Of a stretch of 64,000 bases of DNA, positions 35,875 to 43,083 are shown piece by piece. Each line of letters starts with the position of its first letter. The stretch's first letter is position 1. Source of the stretch: Porphyromonadaceae bacterium COT-184 OH4590 (GTDB lineage: Bacteria > Bacteroidota > Bacteroidia > Bacteroidales > Paludibacteraceae); contig JRAN01000012.1 of assembly GCA_000768855.1 (NCBI GenBank), positions 37,838-101,837 of the forward strand, given 5' to 3'. The notes below the pieces were generated by a model that had not been told where the DNA came from, ran no database searches, and worked only from the letters and a program-made list of their open reading frames with translations. The translations under genes were made by a program, and so were the position numbers.

Positions 35875-36975
35875 TCATAGCGAAAGCAACCTTTCGCCCT
35901 CCTCGATACGTTTTAGGTGGCAGAAGAGAAGCTCGCCGTTTTGGTCGTTGCGTAGGTGCATGCCGTTGCCTTGGCAATACTTGTATGACTTACAATCTGC
36001 ACATATACCTGTCTTTGTCCAACTTCGGTTGCGGAATACCGAGTAGCGGTTTTCCCACACATCAGCGATATTGTCGTCATATATATTGCCTTGAATGAAG
36101 TTTGCCCTGAGGTTTGGGCAAGCCGATATGGAGCCGTCTACAAGTATTGACGCCACATTTATGCCGGCACGGCACGCAAAAAAATTGTCGCGGACTTCGA
36201 GCTCGTAGTTGCCAAGAAAACCTTCGCAACCATAGTTTAGCTTTATCCGCCCCTCTTTGCGTGTGGCGGCGATAAAGTCGAACAGTTGCTTAAACGCCTT
36301 GGGTTCGAGTTGTAGTTCTGTATGCTCTTTGGCTCTGCCAATAGGGAATATGGTAAATATACGCCACTCTTTGACCCCTGCTTCGATGAGACACTCTTTG
36401 AGAGTATCGAGTTCCCCGAAATTCTTCTGATTTACACATGTTACCACATCGAAAGCAATATCGGGTGTACGAGCCAATATCTCTATTCCACTCATTGCGT
36501 TGGCAAAGCTGCGAGAGTTGCCTCTGAGCCAGTTGTGGCTATTTTCGAGTCCGTCGAGGCTAACTGTAATCGACCTAAGCCCCGACCTAAGCAGAGAGTC
36601 TATTTTCTGTTCGCTAAGCAACATACCATTGGTAACTATTCCCCAAGGAAAGCCCCTATGGTATAGCTCTAAGCCTATTTGTTCCAAATCTTTGCGCAAC
36701 AGTGCTTCGCCTCCCGTGAGCACCACAATGGTTTTGTTCGGCTCCACTATGTGGCTAAGCTTGTCTAAGGCAGCAAAGAAGTCTTCAGCGGGCATATCCT
36801 TTACTGTGGAGTCTTGCTTGCAGTCGCTGCCGCAGTGAATGCATTTGAGGTTACACCTAAGGGTACACTCCCAAAAGAGATAGTTGAGCTTGTGGATTTT
36901 AGCCTCGTTTGCTTTATATTTGGCAAAAAGGTTGAGAGCAAGTTTTTTACGAAACGGCATTTTTGTAACACTCAT
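35875..36975 (-). CDS. Radical SAM/SPASM enzyme of the radical SAM/lipoprotein system
   Basis: A 366-residue radical SAM enzyme. The SAM cluster is bound by CNLKCIHC (CxxxCxxC) near residue 40; VVLTGGEALLRKDLEQIG and SVSLDGLENSHNWLRG are typical barrel motifs. A C-terminal SPASM-type region has Cys in FFACRAGINVASI, ISACPNLRANF, GICADCKSYKYCQGN and ELLFCHLKRI, enough for auxiliary iron-sulfur clusters. SPASM enzymes modify peptides or proteins. It starts seven bases after the stop of a small lipoprotein gene, matching the family pair that I recall as TIGR04133 (enzyme) and TIGR04134 (lipoprotein), whose chemistry is unknown. Confidence 0.88.
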   Translation of the reverse strand: MSVTKMPFRKKLALNLFAKYKANEAKIHKLNYLFWECTLRCNLKCIHCGSDCKQDSTVKDMPAEDFFAALDKLSHIVEPNKTIVVLTGGEALLRKDLEQIGLELYHRGFPWGIVTNGMLLSEQKIDSLLRSGLRSITVSLDGLENSHNWLRGNSRSFANAMSGIEILARTPDIAFDVVTCVNQKNFGELDTLKECLIEAGVKEWRIFTIFPIGRAKEHTELQLEPKAFKQLFDFIAATRKEGRIKLNYGCEGFLGNYELEVRDNFFACRAGINVASILVDGSISACPNLRANFIQGNIYDDNIADVWENRYSVFRNRSWTKTGICADCKSYKYCQGNGMHLRNDQNGELLFCHLKRIEEGERLLSL

Positions 36976-36982
36976 AACCTAT

Positions 36983-37429
36983 TTATTCTTTTGGTTTTAG
37001 CGAAACATCAATCTCTTTTGTGGCAGTACCAATATACCAATTACCCGACTTTCCTTTGAAATCGGACGGTTTAACTCTTACGATTGTATCAAGGCTTTGA
37101 AACTCGCCGTTTTCGGTACCGTCAATGTCTTTGTATTTTACCTTAAAAGTTTGGTTTCCACTTCCAAACACTTTGTAACTATGTTTATAAGTTCCATCAG
37201 GGTTTGTGTAAATGGTATCGTGGTCATTCTCCAAAACAATCCTAATATTGCCGATCGGTTCATTGGTAGCCGATGATGTAACTTTACCACTTAGCTCAAA
37301 AGTGGCGTGTGGTGAGCCGTATTCTACTCGAGGAAACAGACTACACGACGAAGTAAGTCCTAAAATACCCATAACCGCTACAATTGCCGCATTGTAGGCA
37401 GTTAAAATTTTAATCTTTAAGTGTTTCAT
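36983..37429 (-). CDS. Radical SAM-associated putative lipoprotein
   Basis: A 148-residue lipoprotein: N-terminal hydrophobic segment (YNAAIVAVMGILGLTSSC) with the lipid-acceptor Cys at about residue 29. The following VEYGSPHATFELSGKVTS and a carboxypeptidase-regulatory-like beta fold (NEPIGNIRIVLEN, TNPDGTYKHSYKV) match the small lipoprotein paired with a radical SAM enzyme in Bacteroidales. It lies directly upstream of that enzyme (7-base gap) and is its likely substrate or partner; no modification site can be pointed to. Confidence 0.8.
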   Translation of the reverse strand: MKHLKIKILTAYNAAIVAVMGILGLTSSCSLFPRVEYGSPHATFELSGKVTSSATNEPIGNIRIVLENDHDTIYTNPDGTYKHSYKVFGSGNQTFKVKYKDIDGTENGEFQSLDTIVRVKPSDFKGKSGNWYIGTATKEIDVSLKPKE

Positions 37430-37622: not shown

Positions 37623-38789
37623 CTAAGAAACTTTTTTCCTTATTATTATAATATTGAAACAATTAATTGCTGCCAAAAGTATAAAGGCGGTGGTTAATAC
37701 TGTAGCTATACCGCCGCTGTTTGGTGTGTCGAATGCTCTGACAATATGTGACATATATAGAGGACGAACCACAAATACTGTAGCAAGCGACAACAATGTT
37801 ACTGCAATATTGATAATCGTAGTAAGTCTTATATAGAAAGCAACAACAGACTTTTTCGAATAACCTGCTAAACGCAGATTTACTATTTTATCGCGATTTT
37901 TTTGCAAAATAAGATATATGCTAAGTACAAGTATCACAAACGACAATGCAAATATGACTATACCTATCAGTAGGCAGACTACAAAGGCTATCCTAAGAAA
38001 GTATGCCATTCGCCCAACAGTTTGGTTTTCGCCCTCTATTTTGTAACCTCGTTCTTTGAAAAATGTGGCTATTGTAGGGTCTGTTATATTCGATATCTCT
38101 ACTATAAGCCGGGCGGGCGTCTTGCTTTTTTGCGGAGCAAAGCGGTTGTTTGCCCAGTTCATAAATGCCTCTGGCACAAGTATGGTATTGATACGGTTCG
38201 AAAAACCTACGATACCTCCCTCAAAACGCTCTAACAAACCATTGCCTGCTATGTTGAGGTCGAACTTTACCATTTGTACCATTCCACCCGATATATTTGG
38301 CATCTGACGCGATGTGGCAAAACCAAAATTGTATAGGTCGAGGTAGTTTTGAGGAACGATGATAGGAACAAATCGGCTTTGCTCGTCGAAACGCCACCTT
38401 TCGCTCTGGATGTCGATAAACTCGGTTGGGATAGCTTCAAAAAAGAGGTCGGCACCAAAACTCATACCCGAAGCCGAAATCCCGCCGTAAACCTCGAACT
38501 GCGATGAGCTAAAACTTCCGACACGACGCACAAACGGCTGCTGTTCGATCTCTTTGATGTCTACTGCCGAAAAGCCCGTCGAACCTCCGATGGTATTGAG
38601 TACAGAAATGTTTTTGGTAATAACAAAAAAATCTTTTTTCAGCACACTATTGCTTCCGTTGAACATTGGGCGGAGGTCGGTATATAGCTGTATCGATAGT
38701 AGTACAATGGTAAGCCCTATAAAGTTGGATATGGCAAAGCCAAAAAGTTGGGTTTTGCTTATATTTTGTCGTAGTAGTTTGTGTAGCAT
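37623..38789 (-). CDS. FtsX-like ABC transporter permease
   Basis: A 388-residue MacB/FtsX-type permease. One N-terminal membrane segment (~residues 15-37), a ~240-residue extracytoplasmic domain, then three C-terminal segments (FVVCLLIGIVIFALSFVILVL; TTIINIAVTLLSLATVFVV; IATVLTTAFILLAAINCF), with the FtsX core in the last 120 residues. No ATP-binding partner gene lies nearby. It has a TAATTTTG element with a short leader and reads toward the radical SAM lipoprotein 193 bases downstream. Confidence 0.8.
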   Translation of the reverse strand: MLHKLLRQNISKTQLFGFAISNFIGLTIVLLSIQLYTDLRPMFNGSNSVLKKDFFVITKNISVLNTIGGSTGFSAVDIKEIEQQPFVRRVGSFSSSQFEVYGGISASGMSFGADLFFEAIPTEFIDIQSERWRFDEQSRFVPIIVPQNYLDLYNFGFATSRQMPNISGGMVQMVKFDLNIAGNGLLERFEGGIVGFSNRINTILVPEAFMNWANNRFAPQKSKTPARLIVEISNITDPTIATFFKERGYKIEGENQTVGRMAYFLRIAFVVCLLIGIVIFALSFVILVLSIYLILQKNRDKIVNLRLAGYSKKSVVAFYIRLTTIINIAVTLLSLATVFVVRPLYMSHIVRAFDTPNSGGIATVLTTAFILLAAINCFNIIIIRKKVS

Positions 38790-41130: not shown

Positions 41131-42216
41131 ATGTATCTCAATTCATCGCTTGCAAAACGCTATACCAAAGAAAACTTTAATGCTGTTGAAGCTCAGCGTT
41201 CGGCTCACGAAATAGCTCAGGGTCCTATAGTATTCCAAGTAAGCCGCTTAATGATAAAATATCGAATATTGCAGCTATTGATAGACTCCGAAAACGGATT
41301 GACAATAAATGAGATTGTTCAAAAAACCAATTTGTCTGAATATGCGGTAAAGATATTAATAGAGTCGTCTCTGTCGATAGGAACAGTTCTTTATGACAAT
41401 GGTAAGTTTCTCTGTTCAAAAACAGGTTGGTTTCTGCTCAACGACCCTGCAGTGAGAGTTAATATCGACTTTAATCACGATGTGAACTATCTCGGTATGT
41501 ATAATTTAGAAGAATCATTGCTCAATGGCAAACCTGAAGGGTTAAAAATATTTGGTTCGTGGCCAACTATTTATGAAGGGTTATCGAGTTTGCCCGAACA
41601 AGTACAAAAATCGTGGTTTGGATTTGACCATTTTTATAGTGATGGTGCTTTTGAGGAGGCTTTCAATATTGTATTTGCTGACAAACCTTGCAAATTGCTC
41701 GATGTGGGAGGTAATACAGGCAAATGGGCTTTGTATTGCATAGAGCATGATGAAGAAGTGGAGATTACTATAATGGATTTGCCACAGCAAATAACATTGA
41801 TGAAGCAAAATATGGTAGATGTTAAAGGGATAGAACGAATACACGGACACGGGTGCAATATGTTGAGTGCCGATACCGCATTTCCTGAAGGATTTGATGC
41901 TATATGGTTTAGCCAGTTTCTTGACTGTTTTTCCGAAGCAGAGATAACAAGTATTCTCTCTCGTGCTTATAGGTCGATGACTCCTAAGACTAAAATTTAT
42001 ATTATGGAGACACTATGGGATAGACAGCGTTTCGAGACAGCCTCTTATGTACTTACTCAAACAAGTGTCTATTTTACGGCTATGGCAAATGGAAACAGTA
42101 AGATGTATCACTCCGAAGACCTTATTCGTTGTATTGAAAAGTCGAATTTGGTGGTAGAAGATATATATGATGGCATAGGTGTAGGACACTCTATTATACG
42201 TTGTGGTATTAAATAG
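41131..42216 (+). CDS. SAM-dependent O-methyltransferase (winged-helix type)
   Basis: A 361-residue methyltransferase. Residues ~30-100 form a winged-helix dimerisation domain (RLMIKYRILQLLIDSENGLT, LSEYAVKILIESSLSIGTV). The Rossmann domain has the SAM loop KLLDVGGNTGKWAL and the following acidic strand ITIMDLP. Its position at the head of an operon with dehydratase, thioesterase and ketosynthase genes fits the ring-modifying methyltransferase of aryl polyene/flexirubin clusters; substrate is inferred. Confidence 0.85.
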   Translation: MYLNSSLAKRYTKENFNAVEAQRSAHEIAQGPIVFQVSRLMIKYRILQLLIDSENGLTINEIVQKTNLSEYAVKILIESSLSIGTVLYDNGKFLCSKTGWFLLNDPAVRVNIDFNHDVNYLGMYNLEESLLNGKPEGLKIFGSWPTIYEGLSSLPEQVQKSWFGFDHFYSDGAFEEAFNIVFADKPCKLLDVGGNTGKWALYCIEHDEEVEITIMDLPQQITLMKQNMVDVKGIERIHGHGCNMLSADTAFPEGFDAIWFSQFLDCFSEAEITSILSRAYRSMTPKTKIYIMETLWDRQRFETASYVLTQTSVYFTAMANGNSKMYHSEDLIRCIEKSNLVVEDIYDGIGVGHSIIRCGIK

Positions 42217-42230
42217 TTGTGATTTGTCTT

Positions 42231-42647
42231 ATGAACTTTGAGACTATAGACATAAAGCAACTGATTCCTCAGCAAGAACCATTTGTAATGGTTGAAAATT
42301 TGCTTTTTTGTGATGAAATAACTACACGAACAAGTTTGACCGCAAAGAGCGACAATATCTTTGTGTCGGACGGAGTTTTGTTGCAGGCAGGTGTTTTGGA
42401 GAATGTGGCTCAGACTTGTGCCGCACGTCTTGGATATCTCACTATTGACAAACCTGTGAGAATAGGTTTTATTGGTGCTATAAACGATTTTGAATTTACC
42501 GGCTACCTCCCCAAAGTGAATGAAAAGATTTTTACCGAGATAAAAGTAACAGCCGAAATAGGAAATATAATACTGATAGATGCAAAAGTAGAGTGTAATT
42601 CAGAAATTATTGCTTTCGGTACAATGAAGGTAGCTTTAATGGAATAA
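42231..42647 (+). CDS. Hotdog-fold 3-hydroxyacyl-ACP dehydratase-like protein
   Basis: About 138 residues. ATG 42231 is preferred to a GTG four codons earlier. The fold reads as FabZ-like (LIPQQEPFVMVENLL; AGVLENVAQTCAARLGY with the catalytic Glu position), as in the dehydratase-like genes of aryl polyene clusters. The segment that normally carries the catalytic His (GHFP) instead reads IFVSDGVLLQ, so it may act differently, need a partner, or be structural. Overlaps nothing; gap to the methyltransferase is 14 bases. Confidence 0.78.
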   Translation: MNFETIDIKQLIPQQEPFVMVENLLFCDEITTRTSLTAKSDNIFVSDGVLLQAGVLENVAQTCAARLGYLTIDKPVRIGFIGAINDFEFTGYLPKVNEKIFTEIKVTAEIGNIILIDAKVECNSEIIAFGTMKVALME

Positions 42648-42657
42648 ATTCAAAATA

Positions 42658-43083
42658 ATGATGAAAGTATTAAAAAGCCAAAAAGAATTTGAAATAAGAT
42701 TTAGCGAAGTAGATTCAATGGGTATAGTATGGCATGGCTCATACTCTCTGTATTTCGAAGATGCCCGTGAACAATTTGGCAAAGAGTATAATTTGGGGTA
42801 TCTCTATATTTTCGAACAGGGGTTTTATGCTCCCCTTGTGGAGTTGCATTTGGAATACAAAAAACCCCTGAAATACAAAGACAAAGCCAGAATAGAGATT
42901 GCCTATCGTCATACAGATGCAGCAAAACTGATTTTCGACTATAAAATATACAGTCTGCCGGACAACAATATTGTTGCCACAGGATATTCGATACAGGTTT
43001 TTCTCGATAAAAGTTTCAATTTGATGTGGGATTTGCCTCCATTTATAAAAGAATGGCGGGATACATATCTAAGGGATAAATAA
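42658..43083 (+). CDS. 4HBT-family acyl-CoA/ACP thioesterase
   Basis: A 141-residue hotdog thioesterase. The active-site Asp is in FSEVDSMGIVWHGSYSLYFEDARE (Asp near residue 19) in the usual DxxGxVxxxxY context. It likely releases or edits acyl chains for the same pathway. It sits 10 bases after the dehydratase-like gene and 12 before the ketosynthase. Confidence 0.88.
   Translation: MMKVLKSQKEFEIRFSEVDSMGIVWHGSYSLYFEDAREQFGKEYNLGYLYIFEQGFYAPLVELHLEYKKPLKYKDKARIEIAYRHTDAAKLIFDYKIYSLPDNNIVATGYSIQVFLDKSFNLMWDLPPFIKEWRDTYLRDK

Follow-up and report, generated by a model that had tools for sequence, protein, structure and literature searches.

What does a radical SAM/SPASM enzyme do to the small lipoprotein encoded beside it? 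The question is raised by a gene pair in the window, by which we mean the whole 64,000 nt stretch of contig JRAN01000012.1 (Porphyromonadaceae bacterium COT-184 OH4590) that was analysed. A sequence-only reading of this DNA had described a 148-residue lipoprotein gene seven bases from the enzyme gene, and had named the pair TIGR04133/TIGR04134. The ORF coordinates agree with this description, with the lipoprotein ORF lying 5′ of the enzyme ORF and a gap of 7 bases between them:

36983-37429, minus strand: TIGR04134 lipoprotein, predicted substrate (148 aa)
35875-36975, minus strand: TIGR04133 radical SAM/SPASM enzyme, predicted lipoprotein splicease (366 aa)

The family names were verified by HMM search. 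The enzyme scores 608.9 bits against TIGR04133 (curated cut-off 425, E=2e-183) and matches the profile over its full length (1-350 of 350), while the lipoprotein scores 107.9 bits against TIGR04134 (curated cut-off 39.8, E=5e-31) over nearly its full length. The enzyme also scores above the Pfam cut-off for Radical_SAM and reaches 36.1 bits for SPASM PF13186 (cut-off 21.5). A promoter and terminator scan of the gene pair gave no signal above chance. A second TIGR04133 pair is found in the same genome on contig C55 (locus L002:1489-2935); its lipoprotein reads ...FQAC-YGMPKDF and belongs to the CYG class, in which the lipobox Cys immediately precedes Tyr-Gly. Both families are catalogued in NCBIfam as hypothetical equivalogs, for which NCBIfam gives no reaction. 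Lipoprotein splicing is the addition that we propose, its chemistry inferred.

The enzyme does carry the CNLKCIHC that had been noticed in it, at residues 41-48, and the Cys-rich region lies towards its C-terminus:

36832-36855, minus strand: radical SAM cluster motif CNLKCIHC (C41, C45, C48), followed by an invariant GSDC (C52), from 42 aligned relatives
35920-36174, minus strand: SPASM region C268-C352, from the Pfam SPASM match and invariant cysteines

In the 42 aligned relatives, cysteines 41, 45, 48, 52, 180, 250, 268, 286, 325, 328, 334 and 352 are invariant. The window enzyme has six of the seven cysteines of the SPASM pattern CX9-15GX4C..CX2CX5CX3C..C. Its CX3C reads CX3G (CQGNG), so that the second SPASM motif lacks its fourth Cys, which PlpX and GDL enzymes retain. 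The structure model of the enzyme has a mean pLDDT of 93, and the closest solved structures are SkfB, BlsE, SuiB and PqqE; no solved splicease structure that could serve as a template was found in the PDB.

The lipoprotein likewise has the SSC lipobox and the YGSPHATF segment that had been pointed out in it:

37346-37429, minus strand: signal sequence, residues 1-28, motif K..L..YN..I...ILGL..S (consensus of alignment A1)
37343-37345, minus strand: lipobox Cys29, lipid anchor (...LTSSC29), an SSC lipobox conserved in at least 90% of alignment A1
37298-37321, minus strand: YGSPHATF at residues 37-44, with Glu36 before it; E-Y-G is the predicted splice site, from the invariance of Y37, G38 and P40
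36986-37309, minus strand: transthyretin/CarboxypepD_reg-like beta-sandwich, residues 41-148, from Pfam, model and structure comparison

Y37, G38 and P40 are invariant across 51 aligned TIGR04134-type proteins, a conservation that equals that of any residue of the fold. The model (mean pLDDT 92) shows a signal helix at residues 2-28, a lower-confidence linker at 29-40 and the beta-sandwich from 41. Thus, Tyr37-Gly38 sits in the linker, just before strand 1, where the block has a pLDDT of 73-74. The beta-sandwich resembles transthyretin-like carboxypeptidase D domains, CnaB domains and the SusC N-terminal extension; these matches are generic, and we dropped the attempt to read a function from the fold. 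The signal sequence is itself conserved (A1 consensus KxxxLxxxNxxIxxLLxxLGFxxxC, also written K..L..YN..I..LL..LGF...C), and LG[FIL] occurs in the signal of 69 of 115 spacer-class partners as compared to 4 of 45 control lipoproteins. This conservation suggests that the signal sequence possibly doubles as a leader recognised by the enzyme.

The TIGR04133 enzyme is found in about a quarter of the sampled genomes of the order (97/393), and in 55 of the 58 genomes of the order that have TIGR04134 (lists compared by hand). Of 192 distinct loci, 148 have a TIGR04134-like gene next to the enzyme gene, in every case on its strand, and the next commonest neighbour cluster is seen in 15/192. The lipoprotein is therefore the sole recurring neighbour, and the pairing is beyond chance. 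It had been described as a Bacteroidales pairing; it is present there, but a wider scan also found it on contigs of Spirochaetota (Treponema), Fibrobacterota and Marinimicrobia. The reading had further placed an FtsX-like permease just upstream. An ORF does exist there, but its Pfam match is below the cut-off:

37623-38789, minus strand: FtsX-like ORF, weak Pfam match (20.8 bits, cut-off 25.5)

When the 192 loci were checked, no FtsX counterpart was seen beside any other copy of the enzyme, and we therefore rejected a coupling with the permease. As only the lipoprotein recurs and FtsX stands beside no other locus, the module consists of the two genes alone, the permease being an incidental neighbour. 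Elsewhere in the window, at 41131-43083, a SAM methyltransferase-like gene is followed by two hotdog-like genes of the dehydratase/thioesterase type; judged by eye, they resemble a section of a pathway for aryl polyenes or flexirubin.

The survey of the partners covered the ORFs upstream of 192 distinct enzymes. An upstream lipobox ORF with Tyr-Gly was found in 161 of the 192 loci, and 148 of the 161 have YGxP. The latter occurs in none of 45 unlinked control lipoproteins, a small set in which each member lies >3.5 kb from any TIGR04133 gene; a Fisher p for 161 versus 45 overstates the contrast, since the presence of YG was the criterion by which the 161 pairs were chosen. The residue X before the Tyr is variable (E 54, C 46, M 21, K 14, V 9, L 9 and A 6 of the 161), Tyr mostly follows the lipid Cys by 1-13 residues (range 1-80), and an aromatic residue is common near motif position +7 (F 62, Y 41). 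More than one YG within 70 residues is seen in 46 partners. The partners fall into four classes: TIGR04134 proper, with signal, linker, YGxPxAx[FY] and beta-sandwich; CYGTP proteins, with Tyr directly after the lipobox Cys; minimal lipopeptides with a mature length of 22-70; and forms in which the lipobox is lost and a signal-like segment and XYG are kept (L008, L096, L105, L059). The range is thus wider than TIGR04134, with which the ultrashort, CYGTP and non-lipidated secreted partners have only signal and motif in common. Among 22 partners the mature part is shorter than 70 residues and has no beta-sandwich, as in CHTRPKTKYGPPSDYRSSEKIR, and the YG motif is retained. Apart from the signal sequence and Tyr-Gly(-x-Pro), no feature is shared by nearly all partners.

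In a few partners, CYDMP, CYAMP or CYAPAP stands in place of YG. Of the 31 loci that lack a scored YG partner with a lipobox, about six have truncated upstream DNA, and in others the YG partner has no lipobox or lies further upstream. One TIGR04134 protein, from a genome in which TIGR04133 was not found, has AGNGSPYAKF, with Asn in the place of Tyr. An orphan orthologue pair (ENKMPHADY and DNKTPHADY) has lost YG and kept the remainder. These few cases of motif loss in two TIGR04134-like lineages are only suggestive; a family protein in the draft genome G618 keeps YG with no enzyme detected. Near four enzymes, though not immediately upstream, we also saw extra YGMP lipoprotein genes (L190, L191, L196, L201), and one enzyme may therefore serve several lipoproteins. 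The earlier idea of a lipoprotein-modifying system is thus supported by the family matches, the partner motif and the recurrence of the neighbour across loci.

Which reaction, then? In splicing, known from small bacterial peptides, most of one tyrosine is cut from the backbone and the ends are rejoined. We define a splicease functionally by an XYG in its partner, the excision of C8H9NO and an alpha-keto-beta-amino product; the window partner has the XYG E36-Y37-G38. The splicease PlpX/PlpY and its spliceotides (Morinaka 2018) are described in PMC10533398 and PMC11002830. XYG is the target of PlpXY, and ...PIRPLYGLPI is one example of a tag that carries the site (PMC10533398). Like the window pair, it has a radical SAM/SPASM enzyme gene beside the substrate gene and an XYG, often XYGxP, in the substrate; PlpX is a related enzyme that shares with TIGR04133 the HCGS motif and the G[YF]xG.YE region. 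The two systems differ in that the PlpX/PlpY substrate is a Nif11/NHLP leader peptide whereas that of the window would be a signal-bearing lipoprotein, and in that PlpX requires the RRE partner PlpY whereas no PlpY-like RRE or Nif11/NHLP precursor recurs beside TIGR04133 in the 192 loci. Unlike PlpX/PlpY, the TIGR04133 module is without a dedicated peptidase or transporter, and unlike PlpX the window enzyme has one SPASM Cys replaced and falls under the cut-off of TIGR04103.

TIGR04103, which we take to be IPR026482, is the second-best NCBIfam family of the window enzyme (145 bits, cut-off 725), with the heme-synthesis family AhbD close behind (134 bits). In a tree, TIGR04133 (100/100) groups with PlpX/TIGR04103, GDL/TIGR03913 and an Agathobacter-type enzyme; a 99/98 branch parts these from NirJ2-like, AhbD-like and MftC enzymes, in a tree that omits the longest branches and has a small outgroup sample chosen by similarity to these enzymes. 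HCGS follows the cluster cysteines in the TIGR04133, PlpX, GDL and Agathobacter types, and a G[YF]xGxYE-like segment precedes SPASM in the first three; both are absent in the outgroups. The divergent TIGR04133-like enzymes L206 and L208 have neither HCGS nor a YG partner. Chlorobi-type relatives fall on the TIGR04133 side of the branch, and no clear XYG partner of theirs was seen in the DNA inspected.

The relatives have XYG partners of their own. A Nostoc TIGR04103 enzyme (853 bits) adjoins a Nif11 precursor ending IALYGLPPELF, with a 71-aa gene where PlpY would stand, and its core shares Y-G-x-P-x-x-x-F with the EYGSPHATF of the window. GDL-motif enzymes (TIGR03913), which are related to TIGR04133, have small DUF1843 partners with XYG near the N-terminus (MLYGG, KPYGV, MPYGV, VLYGV) and, unlike TIGR04134, without export signals. 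The DUF1843 peptides at L121:537-1237 and L225:828-1251 are mostly XYG, one reading PMYMAT, which suggests that these peptides may also be splicease substrates. On an Agathobacter rectalis plasmid, an unannotated small ORF (L118:4713-4919) ending VMYGTGVRM lies upstream of a radical SAM gene and an MFS transporter, and may encode an XYG precursor peptide in this human gut Firmicute. Next to a Bacteroidales Agathobacter-type radical SAM/SPASM enzyme, on its downstream side, lies a 214-aa protein that contains six repeats of KYGYP (L260:3928-6059); the protein has no Pfam match and looks like a multi-site splicease substrate.

Tyr-Gly is very likely the modified site. We propose tyramine excision as the probable reaction because Tyr-Gly(-x-Pro) is the splicease target and the enzyme groups with splicease-type families. 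Another radical reaction at the same site, with the tyramine unit kept, is unlikely in our view; it could be a crosslink of Tyr to a neighbour, backbone epimerisation, oxidative decarboxylation or functionalisation of the beta-carbon. SPASM enzymes are chemically diverse, TIGR04133 has its own cysteine set (C52, C180 and C250 invariant, one SPASM Cys replaced) and no RRE partner, and the conserved aromatic residue near +7 would be a natural point in favour of such chemistry. However, this residue begins strand 1 of the domain and some short partners are without it, a variable X before a near-fixed Y-G is the pattern expected of splicing, and the nearest enzyme families all have XYG partners.

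We regard it as quite improbable that the lipoprotein is not the substrate at all, YGxP being a structural linker motif and the enzyme acting elsewhere. Pro40 and the aromatic residue could indeed cap the beta-sandwich, but YG is kept in partners that have no beta-sandwich, in multiple copies and 1-80 residues from the Cys, two motif-less relatives retain the beta-sandwich family, and the best other neighbour reaches only the 15 loci given above. The sactipeptide maturase SkfB among the nearest solved structures could point to a thioether crosslink from cysteine, as in sactipeptides or ranthipeptides. We rejected this as highly improbable, as the only conserved Cys in alignment A1 is C29 of the lipobox, which must accept the lipid.

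Other observations count against splicing. The TIGR04103 cut-off is missed, the AhbD score is close, no RRE recurs and one SPASM Cys is missing; to these we add the Chlorobi-type relatives, the non-YG partners and the G618 protein. In the 46 partners in which X is the lipid-bearing Cys, moreover, the ketoamide would fall at the lipobox. With these points weighed, we still think that the TIGR04133/TIGR04134 pair is probably a minimal lipoprotein-splicing module, with the enzyme as a lipoprotein splicease. The reading had called the reaction undescribed; NCBIfam gives none, but the Tyr-Gly motif and the enzyme grouping narrow it to the splicing proposed here. Neither the name TIGR04133 nor any splicing of lipoproteins was found in the literature surveyed, to which Scott 2022 (Chem), reportedly on widespread spliceases in 'peptides and proteins' according to its title, may be an exception that already includes the family.

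In the proposed splicing, the cytosolic enzyme would recognise the unfolded pre-lipoprotein, probably via its unusually conserved signal sequence, and would modify Glu36-Tyr37-Gly38 in the cytoplasm with a mass loss of 135.08 Da. Sec export, lipidation on Cys29 and cleavage would follow. The mature lipoprotein would then carry an electrophilic ketoamide in the flexible linker between lipid anchor and beta-sandwich. Ketoamides are electrophiles that react reversibly, and protease inhibition by spliceotides is reported in PMC11117315 (citing Scott 2022) and PMC10373908. The simplest and likeliest use would be a trap at the cell envelope that binds Ser/Cys proteases or other nucleophiles covalently but reversibly, X serving as the P1 residue, though we lean against a protease trap as the function. 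The CYG class, in which X carries the lipid, fits such a trap poorly.

The orphan enzyme-lipoprotein pair is thus turned into a testable prediction of one residue, one mass (-135.08 Da) and one mutation (Y37F). If true, a Sec signal that acts as leader and partners down to 22 residues would be useful for engineering site-specific labels. Our broadest proposal is a tentative one: a non-RiPP system widespread in Bacteroidota, Spirochaetota and Fibrobacterota may splice a ketoamide beta-amino acid into exported lipoproteins, with the Sec signal as leader and, in the CYG class, the lipid-bearing Cys itself as the beta-amino acid. The CYG subclass would then have a previously undescribed type of lipoprotein anchor. 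Backbone splicing would extend from secreted peptides to membrane-anchored proteins, and bacteria that are common in the gut and in the environment would bear reactive ketoamides at their envelope.
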